Below, in pieces: positions 25,842-31,690 of a stretch of DNA of 64,000 nucleotides. This stretch comes from Terricaulis silvestris (GTDB taxonomy: Bacteria > Pseudomonadota > Alphaproteobacteria > Caulobacterales > Aquidulcibacteraceae), in NCBI RefSeq assembly GCF_009792355.1, contig NZ_CP047045.1, forward strand, positions 1,886,501 through 1,950,500, in the 5' to 3' direction. The notes under the pieces were generated by a model, which searched no databases, was not told where the DNA came from, and saw nothing but the letters and a program-made list of their open reading frames with translations. Within the stretch, counting starts at the first letter, position 1; every line of letters begins with the position of its first letter. The position numbers and the translations under genes were made by a program.

Positions 25842-27023
25842 ATGAAACTCCAACGCGCGCTCTGCGCGATCACACTAATAGCAGCCATGGCGCTCGCGCC
25901 GACCGCGGACGCGCAACGCCGCCGCGTCCGCACACCCGCGCCGCCACCACCGCCTGCCGTCGCCCAGCACGTCACCATCATGGACGGCGCGTCAGGCGCG
26001 CTCCTCGACTGCGAGAACTGCAACGAACCGATCCCGCCGGCTTCGATGGCGAAGCTGATGACGGTGCTGGTCGTGCTTGAGGAGCTGCAATCCGGCCGCA
26101 TCACCTACAACACCCGCTACACCGTCAGCGAATACGCCTGGCGTGAACACGGCGCGATGTCGTCTGGCTCGCATATGTTCTTGCCGATCAACGAAAGCGT
26201 TGCGGTGCGTGACTTGATCCAAGGCGCGGTTATCGTCTCCGCCAACGACGCCTGCGTGGTTCTCGCCGAAGGCATCGCTGGCTCCGAAGAAGCCTTCGTC
26301 GCGCGCATGAACCGCCGCGCCCGCGAACTCGGCCTTACCACCGCGCGCTTCCGGAACGTCACCGGCCTCGACGATCCCGAACAGCGCATCAGCTCGTCCG
26401 ACCTCGCGCGTCTCGCTCGCCACCTGATTGTGAATTATCCAGCCTTTTATCGCGTCTACGGCCGGCGCGAGTTCACGTACAACAACCACACGCAGTCGAA
26501 CCGCAATCCGCTACTCGGCGCCTATCCCGGCGCTGATGGCATGAAGACAGGCCACACCGACGAATCCGGATACGGCCTGATCGGCTCTGCTGTGCTCAAT
26601 AACGAGCGCCGCATCATTGTATTCAACGGTCTGCCGACAATGGCCGCGCGCAATGCCGAAGCGCAGCGCCTGATGCGTAGCGGCTTCAACGATTTCGCGC
26701 TGACCACGCTCGCCGAAGCCGGCGCTGAAGTAGGCCAAGCGCAAGTACGCCTCGGCGGCCGCCGCACCGTGCCGCTGGTGGCGCAGCAGCGCATCGTCAT
26801 TGGCGGCACACGCGCAGTCCAGGCCGGCCTTACCGCGCACGTCGTCTACGACGGCCCACTCCATCCGCCGATCCGCGAAGGCGCTGAAGTGGCCCATCTC
26901 GTGGTGGAGGGGCCGGGATATGAGACGCAGCGGTTCCCGCTGGTCGCTGGACGCAATGTCGGCAAGGCCAACTGGTTCTCCCGCGCCTGGGAAGGCTTGC
27001 GCCTGACCTTCTTCGGCCCTTGA
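25842..27023 (+). CDS. dacF: D-alanyl-D-alanine carboxypeptidase (PBP5/6, DacF type)
   Basis: A 393-residue penicillin-binding protein with a Sec signal peptide ending at ADAQ (about residue 25). The serine peptidase motifs are in order: SxxK in PASMAKLM, SxN in VSANDACV, and KTG in GMKTGHTDESGYG. A C-terminal beta domain and an amphipathic membrane-anchor end (GKANWFSRAWEGLRLTFFG) complete it. It trims the terminal D-Ala from peptidoglycan pentapeptides in the periplasm. Only seven bases separate it from tmk, a frequent alphaproteobacterial pairing (rlpA-dacF-tmk-holB). Confidence 0.95.
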   Translation: MKLQRALCAITLIAAMALAPTADAQRRRVRTPAPPPPPAVAQHVTIMDGASGALLDCENCNEPIPPASMAKLMTVLVVLEELQSGRITYNTRYTVSEYAWREHGAMSSGSHMFLPINESVAVRDLIQGAVIVSANDACVVLAEGIAGSEEAFVARMNRRARELGLTTARFRNVTGLDDPEQRISSSDLARLARHLIVNYPAFYRVYGRREFTYNNHTQSNRNPLLGAYPGADGMKTGHTDESGYGLIGSAVLNNERRIIVFNGLPTMAARNAEAQRLMRSGFNDFALTTLAEAGAEVGQAQVRLGGRRTVPLVAQQRIVIGGTRAVQAGLTAHVVYDGPLHPPIREGAEVAHLVVEGPGYETQRFPLVAGRNVGKANWFSRAWEGLRLTFFGP

Positions 27024-29445: not shown

Positions 29446-29549
29446 CAGGTTGGAGCGCGGGCCTCCGGCCCGCATATTTCCGTCGCGCCAGATGATGTCC
29501 TTGAGTTGGCGCATAGTGCATGCGGGCCGGAGGCCCGCGCTCCAACCTG
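29446..29549. repeat. REP-like element: two 30-base palindromic units in perfect inverted orientation
   Basis: Bases 29446-29475 are the exact reverse complement of 29520-29549, separated by 44 bases. Each arm contains its own hairpin, GCGGGCC-TCC-GGCCCGC (29457-29473 in the left arm). This is the layout of a BIME: paired REP units. It sits between tatD and the MBL-fold gene, and the right arm lies just upstream of that gene's ribosome-binding site. Confidence 0.9.
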
Positions 29550-29561
29550 TGGAGGTCGCGA

Positions 29562-30383
29562 GTGAGCACGTTGCGCGTCACCGTGCTGGGCTGTGGCTCC
29601 TCCGGCGGCGTCCCGCGCGCCACTGGCGACTGGGGCGTGTGCGATCCGAACGAGCCGAAGAACCGCCGCACGCGCTGCGGGCTGTTGCTGCAGAAGTGGA
29701 GCGGGGCGCCCGCCAGCGCGGAGGAGGCGACCACCGTCCTCATCGACACCGCACCGGAACTCCGCCAGCAGCTCGCGGCCGCCGGCGCAGCCAGGCTCGA
29801 CGCCGTCATCCTCAGCCACGACCACGCTGACCAGACCAACGGCTTCGACGACGTCCGCGCCTTCTTCATCAAGCAGCGCGCGACCATCCCAGTCTGGCTC
29901 GACGCCCACACGCGCGAAACGTTCATGCGCCGCTTCGGCTACACCTTCATCTCGGACACCGGCTATCCCGCCATCGTCCGCGAAGCCGGGCGCATCACGC
30001 CGCTCACGCCGATCGTCACCGACGGCCCAGGCGGGCCGCTGGAGATCCTGCCGCTCGATCAAGACCACGGCTTCAGCCGCTCGCTCGGTTTCCGCGCCGG
30101 CCCCGTGGGCTACTCGAACGATCTCGTCGCCATGCCCGAGGAAAGCTTCGCTGAACTCGATGGCCTCGCGCTCTGGATCGTCGACGCACTGCGCGACCGC
30201 CCGCATCCCACGCACGCGCACGTCGCGCGCAGCCTCGAATGGATCGCGCGCCTCAAGCCCGCGCACGCGCTGCTGACGAACATGCACATCGACTTGGACT
30301 ACGCCGCGCTGAAGGCGAGGCTGCCGGCCGGCGTCGAACCAGCCTACGATGGCTGGGCTGGCGATTACGATATAAGCGAGTAG
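29562..30383 (+). CDS. MBL-fold metallo-hydrolase (PhnP-like)
   Basis: A 273-residue metallo-beta-lactamase-fold protein. The GTG at 29562 with GGAGG (29551-29555) is preferred; the frame could be extended to an ATG inside the REP repeat. Motifs: VLGCGSSGGVP, the Cys pair in GVCDPNEPKNRRTRCG typical of PhnP relatives, LIDTAPELR, and SHDHADQTNG, where a Gln replaces the last His of HxHxDH. It is probably a phosphodiesterase. Downstream of tatD, as in many alphaproteobacteria. Its TAG stop lies inside the left repeat of the following four-helix-bundle element, so the last residues (YDISE) may be recent. Confidence 0.88.
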   Translation: MSTLRVTVLGCGSSGGVPRATGDWGVCDPNEPKNRRTRCGLLLQKWSGAPASAEEATTVLIDTAPELRQQLAAAGAARLDAVILSHDHADQTNGFDDVRAFFIKQRATIPVWLDAHTRETFMRRFGYTFISDTGYPAIVREAGRITPLTPIVTDGPGGPLEILPLDQDHGFSRSLGFRAGPVGYSNDLVAMPEESFAELDGLALWIVDALRDRPHPTHAHVARSLEWIARLKPAHALLTNMHIDLDYAALKARLPAGVEPAYDGWAGDYDISE

Positions 30384-30406
30384 CGAATGGTGAGTAGCGA
30401 ATAGGG
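30376..30406. repeat. left short-repeat cluster flanking the four-helix-bundle gene
   Basis: GAGTAGCGAATGG (30378-30390) and GAGTAGCGAATAGGG (30392-30406) are two near-identical direct copies in a row. The first supplies the stop codon of the MBL-fold gene. Inverted copies lie on the other side of the four-helix-bundle gene. Confidence 0.85.
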
Positions 30407-30413
30407 ATTTTGA

Positions 30414-30788
30414 ATGACGATTACATCGTATCGCGACCTTAAAATCTGGCAGTTGGCGATTGATCTCGCTGAGGCGGCCTATTCGATCACGCGCGACTTC
30501 CCAAACTCCGAACTCTACGGGCTGACGTCTCAAATGCGGCGCGCGGCCGTATCGATTGCGGCCAACATTGCAGAAGGTCACGGTCGCGAAACGACCGGCG
30601 CTTTCATCCAATTTCTGCGCATTGCTCAAGGCCCACTCAAAGAGCTAGAGACCCATCTCATCATTGCCCGGCGTCTCGACCTCACGTCGTCCGACGACTC
30701 TGGCAAACTGCTTGGTCAGTGTGACGAGCTTGGGAGAATGGTGCGAGGGCTCATCCGATCTCTTCAGGAGAAGGAGGCTGCGGCGTGA
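30414..30788 (+). CDS. four-helix-bundle protein (23S rRNA IVS / Avd-like family)
   Basis: A 124-residue all-helical protein. The signature YRDLKIWQLAIDLAE, FPNSELYGLTSQMRRAAVSIAANIAEGHGR and FLRIAQGPLKELETHLIIARRL is that of the four-helix-bundle family (S23/IVS proteins), which also includes Avd from diversity-generating retroelements. No reverse transcriptase or rRNA is nearby. The gene is tightly bracketed by inverted clusters of a GAGTAGCGAAT repeat, suggesting that gene plus repeats form a small mobile unit inserted between the MBL-fold gene and mazG. The biochemical role is unknown. Confidence 0.93.
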   Translation: MTITSYRDLKIWQLAIDLAEAAYSITRDFPNSELYGLTSQMRRAAVSIAANIAEGHGRETTGAFIQFLRIAQGPLKELETHLIIARRLDLTSSDDSGKLLGQCDELGRMVRGLIRSLQEKEAAA

Positions 30789-30789
30789 G

Positions 30790-30820
30790 CCTACTCGCCA
30801 TTCGCTATTCGCTACTCACG
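30790..30820. repeat. right short-repeat cluster flanking the four-helix-bundle gene
   Basis: Read on the minus strand, the segment contains GAGTAGCGAATAGCGAATGG followed by CGAGTAGG, so it is inverted relative to 30376-30406. It starts two bases after the four-helix-bundle stop codon. Confidence 0.85.
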
Positions 30821-30853
30821 GATTGCTCATAATCTATCTTATGCGAGAACTGT

Positions 30854-31690
30854 ATGCCTGGCCAAGCTGCTGATAAGGCGATGGAAAAGAGCGCTGAGAC
30901 CCTCTCCCGCAATGCCGCCGCTACTCAGGCCGTGCTCGATGTGATGGCGCGGCTGCGCGATCCGCAGCGCGGCTGTCCGTGGGATATCGAGCAGACTTTC
31001 GCGACCATCGCGCCGTACACGATCGAGGAGGCCTACGAGGTCGCCGACGCGATCGATCGCAACGATCTGAAAGCGCTCAAGGAAGAACTGGGCGACCTCC
31101 TCTTCCAAGTCGCCTTCCACGCCCGCATGGCCGAGGAGCAAGGCGCGTTCGATTTCGCCGACGTCGCCCAGGCGCTCGCCGACAAGATGATCGAGCGCCA
31201 TCCGCATGTGTTCGGTGAAAAGGTTGAGCGTACGGCGGAGGAGCAGACGGCGGCCTGGGAGACGCTGAAGGCCGAGAAGCGCGCCGCCAGCGGCGCCTCG
31301 CTGCTGCACGACGTGCCCATGGCCCTGCCCGCCCTCATGCGCGCCGAGAAGCTCACCAAGCGCGCCGCGCGCATCAACTTCGATTGGCCGACGCCTGAGC
31401 CCGTGCTGGAGAAGCTCGAAGAAGAATTGGCCGAACTGAAGGAGGCGCGCGCCAGCGGCGATCAAGAGCACATTGCCGAAGAGATGGGCGACATCCTCTT
31501 CGTCATGGCCAACCTCGCCCGCAAGCTGAAGGTCGACCCCGAAGAAGCCCTCCGCCGCGCCAACGCCAAGTTCACGCGGCGGTTTCAGTACATCGAGACG
31601 AAGCTCGCGGAAGCGGGCCGCACCGGCCCACAGCCGCTGGACGACATGGAAGCGCTTTGGCTTGAGGCTAAGCGGGCTGAGAAGAGATAG
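30854..31690 (+). CDS. mazG: nucleoside triphosphate pyrophosphohydrolase MazG
   Basis: A 278-residue protein with two MazG domains. The N-terminal domain holds RDPQRGCPWDIEQTF and the metal-binding EEAYEVADAI...LKEELGDLLFQVAFHA (ExxE..ExxD pattern). The C-terminal domain repeats it with LEEELAELKEA...IAEEMGDILFVMANLA. It hydrolyses non-canonical or excess NTPs. The start is a choice between 30854 and an ATG at 30881; no strong ribosome-binding site decides. Confidence 0.93.
   Translation: MPGQAADKAMEKSAETLSRNAAATQAVLDVMARLRDPQRGCPWDIEQTFATIAPYTIEEAYEVADAIDRNDLKALKEELGDLLFQVAFHARMAEEQGAFDFADVAQALADKMIERHPHVFGEKVERTAEEQTAAWETLKAEKRAASGASLLHDVPMALPALMRAEKLTKRAARINFDWPTPEPVLEKLEEELAELKEARASGDQEHIAEEMGDILFVMANLARKLKVDPEEALRRANAKFTRRFQYIETKLAEAGRTGPQPLDDMEALWLEAKRAEKR

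Follow-up and report, generated by a model that had tools for sequence, protein, structure and literature searches.

Intervening sequences (IVSs) of 23S rRNA genes, as in Coxiella and Leptospira, contain an S23 open reading frame (ORF) within a loop that is closed by a terminal stem, 28 bp long in Coxiella, and the excision of rRNA IVSs from the transcript by RNase III has been shown by others (PMC4990558). The 5' region of the Coxiella IVS has heptameric repeats, with up to three GACAGAT units and one GACAGAA unit ahead of the S23 ORF. An RNase III site lies at the first GACAGAT repeat, the number of units differs among strains, and the authors considered that the S23 protein is probably not made in vivo (PMC4990558). 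IVP genes are also described in cas loci (PMC3936711) and in rRNA insertions of CPR bacteria (PMC11270868), in both cases without mention of heptads in the available text. The PF05635 family is related to Avd of diversity-generating retroelements (DGRs), and both are four-helix bundles of one fold family (PMC10053308).

Heptamers have been described separately in the Coxiella IVS (PMC4990558), in Xanthomonas and Nostoc (PMC4692102) and in Beggiatoaceae (PMC4679880). The Xanthomonas repeats (GGGAATC) are mostly arranged four per array, as single arrays or inverted pairs near stop codons, and 83% of them have the same location in two genomes; the Nostoc repeats (GGGGA(C/T)T) share the 7-bp unit, and in Nostoc 7120 few form inverted pairs and none lies on its plasmids (PMC4692102). 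In the accessible part of that description, no link with S23 is drawn for either group (PMC4692102). In the REPIN/RAYT system, gene-less inverted doublets are dispersed as hairpins and the same repeats flank one protein gene (PMC3116915). Within the openly available PMC text, we found no statement of a general link between S23 genes and heptad arms.

The element analysed here lies in a window of 64,000 nucleotides (the whole stretch of DNA that was analysed), and its features are collected in Table 1. The 124-residue S23-type gene announced by the earlier note is present: its ORF scored 127.1 bits against PF05635 (23S_rRNA_IVP; cut-off 33.8) and 125.9 bits against TIGR02436 (cut-off 24). The left arm, rich in purines on the S23 sense strand, reads AGCGAGT, AGCGAAT, GGTGAGT and AGCGAAT from 30375 to 30402. 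The ATG (30414) is located 7 bases past the end of this arm and 11 bases past the last full unit, and one base separates the TGA (30786-30788) from the start of the right arm, so that the repeats do hug the start and stop codons, as had been noticed. The inverted clusters around the gene were also described correctly, with four units per arm, but their regularity is a period of 7 and not an 11-mer. The 11-mer GAGTAGCGAAT occurs exactly at 30378 (+), 30392 (+) and 30807 (-) and with one mismatch at 30800 (-). At one mismatch or fewer, it has five matches in the window, the fifth lying elsewhere at 26506, whereas 100 shuffles average 0.87 matches and reach at most 3. The 28-nt arms at 30378-30405 and 30790-30817 are 82% complementary, and the predicted RNA fold of the entire element has a free energy of -181 kcal/mol (z -4.9). 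The insert had been placed between tatD and mazG; mazG is indeed the downstream gene, but the immediate upstream gene encodes an MBL-fold hydrolase and tatD is one gene further. The junction between the MBL-fold hydrolase gene and mazG reads TGA, then GTCG, in most relatives that lack the insert.

Table 1. Features of the S23 element and its host genes in the window
Feature	Position	Strand	Basis or remark
MBL-fold hydrolase, upstream host gene	29562..30383	+	insertion context
Entire element as folded, arms and gene	30375..30822	+	23-bp closing helix, ORF within
Left arm, four degenerate 7-bp units and AGGG	30375..30406	+	sequence, complementarity, family-wide period 7
TAG stop codon of the MBL-fold hydrolase, inside the left arm	30381..30383	+	supplied by the arm
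S23/IVP (PF05635) four-helix-bundle protein, 124 aa	30414..30788	+	profile match, AF2 model, structure matches
Right arm, same 7-bp units in inverse orientation	30790..30819	-	base-pairs with the left arm when the RNA is folded
mazG, downstream host gene	30854..31690	+	insertion context

The window copy resembles the rRNA IVSs in that complementary ends close a stem around an S23 ORF. It differs in its site, which is between the MBL hydrolase gene and mazG and outside an rRNA gene, as most other copies adjoin protein genes; a heptad rule for both arms and gene-less derivatives are absent from the IVS description in its available text (PMC4990558). The likeness to insertion sequences and MITEs lies in inverted ends and gene-less derivatives, whereas the element contains no transposase ORF (the S23 ORF is its only one, and the flanking genes are those of the MBL hydrolase and mazG), its ends are set by a period, and no target duplication signal is seen. 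For reverse transcriptases and Y1 transposases, the reported absence extends beyond the neighbourhood: the RVT_1 and Y1_Tnp profiles had no match in the whole single-contig 3.86-Mb genome. PADLOC returned no defence-system match.

The AF2 model of the window protein has four helices (pLDDT 92.8), and the structures nearest to this model are 2GSC, 2RLD and Avd in DGR ribonucleoproteins. No catalytic motif and no enzymatic activity of S23 are known to us. The 2GSC structure, the S23 protein of X. campestris, is a pentamer (PMC4990558). Both alignments have W12, P30, Q40, S47, N51, A53, E54, G55, G73 and E77 among their invariant residues. In nine of ten chosen S23 pairs the dN/dS ratio was 0.04-0.17, and it was 0.31 in the nearly identical pair L049/L052; S23 is under purifying selection.

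Period-7 inverted arms were found to mark the S23 family. Inverted arms are present at 137 of 175 distinct S23 loci and in 1 of 327 neighbouring control windows, so the proposed repeats do occur with this family elsewhere. The 175 loci combine two sets with ten of 31 plasmid records, and arms were called here at a score slightly different from that of the single sets. The first set comprised 112 loci (L001-L112) from the host genome, its relatives and public contigs, of which 111 had a located gene and 104 were scored after the removal of two duplicates and five loci with short flanks. An inverted match of at least 12 was obtained for 94 of these 104, whereas only 0.85% of the 236 neighbour windows taken with a shift did as well. 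The same score is reached in 49% of mismatched locus pairs, because many loci have a unit in common. An identity of at least 19/24 at lag 7 was seen in 64% of S23 flanks and 0.2% of neighbour flanks from the same contigs, while the fraction rounds to 0.00 at all other lags from 4 to 13 and is 0.23 at lag 14. The second set was drawn from 398 evenly sampled Pseudomonadota genomes, of which 62 had a match. Most of the new full-length matches were fetched (26 loci, 40 stretches), with fragments and a few others excluded, and 63 genes were scored, leaving 60 after subtraction of two repeats and one first-set gene. The inverted match was at least 12 in 38 of the 60, and lag-7 identity was at least 17 on one or both sides in 45. 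All ten plasmid loci (seven of them cyanobacterial) had an inverted score of at least 12, and their units differ again, AGGGAGT, AGGGTGT, AGGGAAC and CAGGTGA being among them. S23 loci of other phyla likewise carry such arms.

After clustering of the proteins at 70% identity, 51 of 77 clusters carry arms, 49 with a best period of 7 and one each with 8 and 5. The 26 clusters without arms at the threshold include several loci with a one-sided array or a broken gene, as well as the Avd-type loci L215 and L216. No clear arms were detected at 14 scored loci found with the DGR Avd profile (15 loci, one mislocated), of which six exceed the Avd cut-off; inverted scores went no higher than 12, a value seen at one locus, and a lag-7 identity of 17 was reached in 1 of 28 flanks. 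A generic array scan of the window and of two Nostoc plasmid stretches of 50 kb yielded few arrays, at a threshold that missed the window's own arms. A period of 8 in place of 7 was observed at L150 (Gemmatirosa), L163, L176, L179 and L181, with AGGGGAGT as an example, and the rhythm itself can thus shift.

The two arms are stems matched in register. In a cross-validated test, a register picked from one stem half gave a better match in the remaining half than other registers did, with 27 wins, 4 losses and 1 tie among 32 (p 1e-4) and 26 wins, 14 losses and 1 tie among 41 (p 7e-4). With shuffling of the unit order, 39 of 46 loci lie over the shuffled mean, although per locus the effect is weak (a median of 0.30 of the shuffles reach the observed value). 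The commonest stem lengths fall in the 28-34 bin, with 67 of 138 loci. Left arms of the 51 representatives have a mean purine fraction of 0.71, and stop codons in two or three frames occur in 29 of 51 left arms versus 11 of 51 on the other strand. Since a heptamer passes through all three frames, an array bearing TAG or TGA may be able to end an interrupted gene. A wobble test for selection on the sense RNA was weak, with 50 G.U against 40 A.C over the 51 representatives; the corresponding figures of 150 and 111 over 138 related loci were not counted because these loci are not independent.

The host genome (G000) has three PF05635 genes with inverted heptad arms at each, but the units differ: AGCGART in the window, CAGGTRT at L002 and CGGCART at L003, where the left array is ~100 bp from the start codon. 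At the MBL-mazG junction of 30 genomes of the genus, S23 is present in 2, the junction is short in 25 and other sequence lies in 3 (L120, L138, L139); in 7 of the 25 short junctions the gap appears long solely from a late-starting MazG hit. Fixation at this locus, which would have spoken against the cassette, is therefore not what was found. In a tree built from the 25 genomes where both proteins were of sufficient length, a single clade of the two carriers was rejected (p-AU 2.6e-5), and supported forks place empty genomes between them. As the carriers are not a clade, two gains, one transfer or several precise losses are required. Among 27 genus genomes, nuoA-nuoB is filled in one and has a lone left array without the gene in two, and nuoC-nuoD is filled in one and has a lone right array in one. 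In 17 of the 27 genomes (L249-L275), nuoC and nuoD are separated by extra sequence of another kind, 189-938 bp long, and this junction looks like an acquisition hotspot.

A scan of the genus for the unit patterns gave single matches that are mostly due to chance, the reversed control being equally frequent in most genomes. Among the matches listed, 12 array sites were fetched, ten of them chosen for close-lying matches on both strands, a choice that yields no rate. At least ten gene-less hairpins were found in three genus genomes, mostly with 3-5 units per arm, and one of them, bearing the window's unit, is in the host genome (G000:C1:2268472-2268572); the remaining two of the 12 sites are single arrays. 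One genome (G019) has three gene-less hairpins yet no PF05635 match. The loops are unrelated by eye, which argues that these hairpins are not simple copies of one another. Two gene-less heptad hairpins (L325, L331) have the same location in two genomes, immediately ahead of a tRNA-like sequence, and their arms are similar while their loops have diverged.

The placement of the elements was examined for 51 representatives with longest ORFs in place of annotation, and only upstream counts were used because downstream calls are unreliable in high-GC DNA (mazG was missed at L001). An upstream ORF was located for 47 of the 51 and is co-directional with S23 in 42 of the 47; relative to its stop codon, the left arm starts at a median of 2 bp and in 34 of 42 within -30 to +15. 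The nuoC-nuoD junction is the site of 50 of 138 arm-bearing loci, an occupancy that could be largely vertical. At L206 and L152, S23 genes lie inside bacterial LSU rRNA in sense orientation with period-7 arms; L207, a second copy in the genome of L206, has the same flanks over the part shown. These arms in LSU rRNA, taken with the Coxiella heptamers, show that rRNA IVSs and the intergenic cassette have a common architecture.

Gain and loss are also seen among Nostoc plasmids. Site A is filled in L145 and L276, is empty in L277, L278 and L281, and has gene-less inserts in L279 and L280. Site B is filled in L149, L282 and L283, is empty in L284-L287 and L289, where a stop codon, 3 bases and an ATG follow one another, and has other sequence in L288. 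Site C is filled only in L287 and is empty in the other 8. In L282, a 182-nt gene-less heptad hairpin, with the same unit as its host S23 element, interrupts the S23 gene itself. The search for repeats without the gene, proposed by the earlier note, thus gave gene-less hairpins in the genus, including the host genome, and on Nostoc plasmids. The gene-less insert of L280 has AATTCAAA repeats and, compared with the empty L281, an imperfect 8-bp duplication, AATAGTCA/AATGGTCA. Duplication-like sequence was seen by eye here and at Nostoc site B (TTCTA), and not at the nested L282 insert. Over the 51 representatives there is no signal of target-site duplication (3.33 bases versus 3.29 in mismatched pairs). 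On plasmid pANA02 of Anabaena sp. 90, the S23 cassette L147, whose arms consist of CAGGTGA units, is located between cas6 and cas4; a cassette inside a CRISPR-cas cluster may explain why IVP genes have been listed as cas-associated (PMC3936711).

The similarity of arm units tracks the identity of the proteins, also across different insertion sites. Pairs at different sites with proteins at least 60% identical share 5.83 of 7 unit bases, whereas 200 shuffles average 4.69 and reach no more than 5.05; a different site means no homologous flanking peptide within 1.2 kb, the pairs are not independent and the shuffles ignore relatedness. The element L105 at nuoC-nuoD is 79% identical to L099 at another site, whereas it is at most 69% identical to the nuoC-nuoD elements other than L174 and L060. 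The co-inheritance of unit and protein across sites and the likeness of L105 to L099 suggest jumps between sites. Searches at the sensitivity used, one of which detects close relatives only, gave no S23 relatives in phages or viral contigs.

Thus, the regularity of the arms in the S23 family is real, and the window element, judged by comparison, appears to be a mobile IVS-type cassette in a new setting. We consider it fairly probable that this is a small mobile element of the IVS type, a hairpin with inverted 7-bp units as its arms and an S23/IVP gene in its loop. As sequence comparison shows, such elements are gained or lost at defined junctions, mostly right after the stop codon of a co-directional gene and twice in 23S rRNA, and the earlier proposal that gene and repeats move as a cassette is supported by the empty sites, the family-wide arms and the co-inheritance of the units. 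The element would be transcribed within the host message and, by analogy with the rRNA IVSs, its arms would pair as an RNA stem that RNase III can cut, in which case an insert between the genes of an operon or within an rRNA loop would do little harm. More tentatively, an S23 pentamer might bind the heptad stem, whether this is RNA or single-stranded DNA, and might help new copies insert, the gene-less hairpins included, with cutting and joining by host functions and not by a reverse transcriptase or Y1 transposase.

Two other readings supply the missing enzyme in trans. Arms acting as DNA hairpins could move as single strands by a transposase, as in REPIN/RAYT, with S23 as helper or passenger. 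Inverted doublets forming dispersed hairpins, gene-less copies and some single arrays are what REPINs look like (PMC3116915), and the missing target duplication signal agrees with this mechanism. No such duplication is expected from single-strand transposition. The host genome nevertheless has three S23 copies and a gene-less hairpin in the absence of Y1_Tnp, the hairpin loops look unrelated, the gene is S23 and not a Y1 transposase, and the tandem heptamer arms vary in sequence between elements, so we regard this reading as rather unlikely; a RAYT/Y1 transposase encoded in the host genome itself was rejected by the zero matches. Mobility through RNA with a reverse transcriptase in trans, as for Avd and its reverse transcriptase in DGRs, would fit the common fold and remote homology of S23 and Avd, the mostly co-directional insertions (42/47) and the sense orientation of both rRNA cases (L206, L152). 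The host genome lacks RVT_1 and the Avd loci lack clear arms. S23 and RVT_1 are also not associated, RVT_1 being present in 20 of 62 S23 genomes (four of them under the PF05635 cut-off) and 113 of 336 others (Fisher p 0.88), and this route seems quite improbable. Membership of the window element in a DGR was itself ruled out by the absent RVT_1, an Avd equivalog score of 21.2 bits under a cut-off of 80, and the arm-less Avd-profile loci.

The remaining readings dispense with movement of the element as a unit. The arms could arise locally, by polymerase slippage of 7 bp and template switching from one inverted repeat to the other, and serve in RNA processing or termination, with S23 spread solely by ordinary transfer through homologous flanks. 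Heptamers are over-represented among simple repeats in bacteria and slippage has been proposed for them (PMC4692102, PMC4679880), the unit number varies among Coxiella strains (PMC4990558), and the Xanthomonas heptamers are mostly co-located in two genomes and generally apart from mobile elements (PMC4692102). The arms kept matched in register and the lone arrays at nuoA-nuoB, nuoC-nuoD and the single-array sites of the genus point the same way. Against this, the empty MBL-mazG junctions and three empty Nostoc sites have no arrays, the units follow the S23 lineage over unrelated sites, and period-7 arrays are rare away from S23 (the 0.2% of neighbour flanks against 64%); on balance we judge local origin unlikely. 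A fixed host gene with autoregulatory repeats and no mobility would be in keeping with the purifying selection on S23 and with arms conserved beyond synonymous saturation, since same-site arms at third-position saturation are 0.67 identical versus 0.41 when shuffled (883 non-independent pairs). This is contradicted by the empty sites, with S23 in only 2 of 30 genomes at MBL-mazG and these not a clade, and by the many different junctions and the plasmid polymorphism, and we take it to be very improbable.

If the mobile cassette reading holds, it may extend further. S23/IVP genes would then form a widespread mobile class without transposase or reverse transcriptase, in which the 7-bp period (rarely 8), and not the sequence, specifies the ends, an S23 ring reads the heptad rhythm on the paired strand, and the cyanobacterial and xanthomonad heptamers are gene-less derivatives and remains. 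The STRR of cyanobacteria are comparable heptameric repeats. This extension is possible but doubtful, weakened because the Xanthomonas repeats are mostly position-stable and few of the Nostoc 7120 repeats are paired (PMC4692102). S23/IVP has been annotated for about three decades without a function, and the period-7 arms join this family, IVS mobility and the origin of heptamers in one testable model, that of a tiny element concealed in operon junctions and rRNA loops. Should S23 aid insertion, its fold would be new among mobility proteins, as far as is known.

A second hairpin in the window, at 29452-29543, is unrelated to the S23 element and has GCGGGCCGGAGGCCCGCGCTCC in inverted copies just past the tatD stop codon. 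This sequence has 15 matches at two mismatches or fewer in the genome, 8 of them exact (0 for the reversed control), and forms four inverted pairs with a spacing of 56-70 bp.
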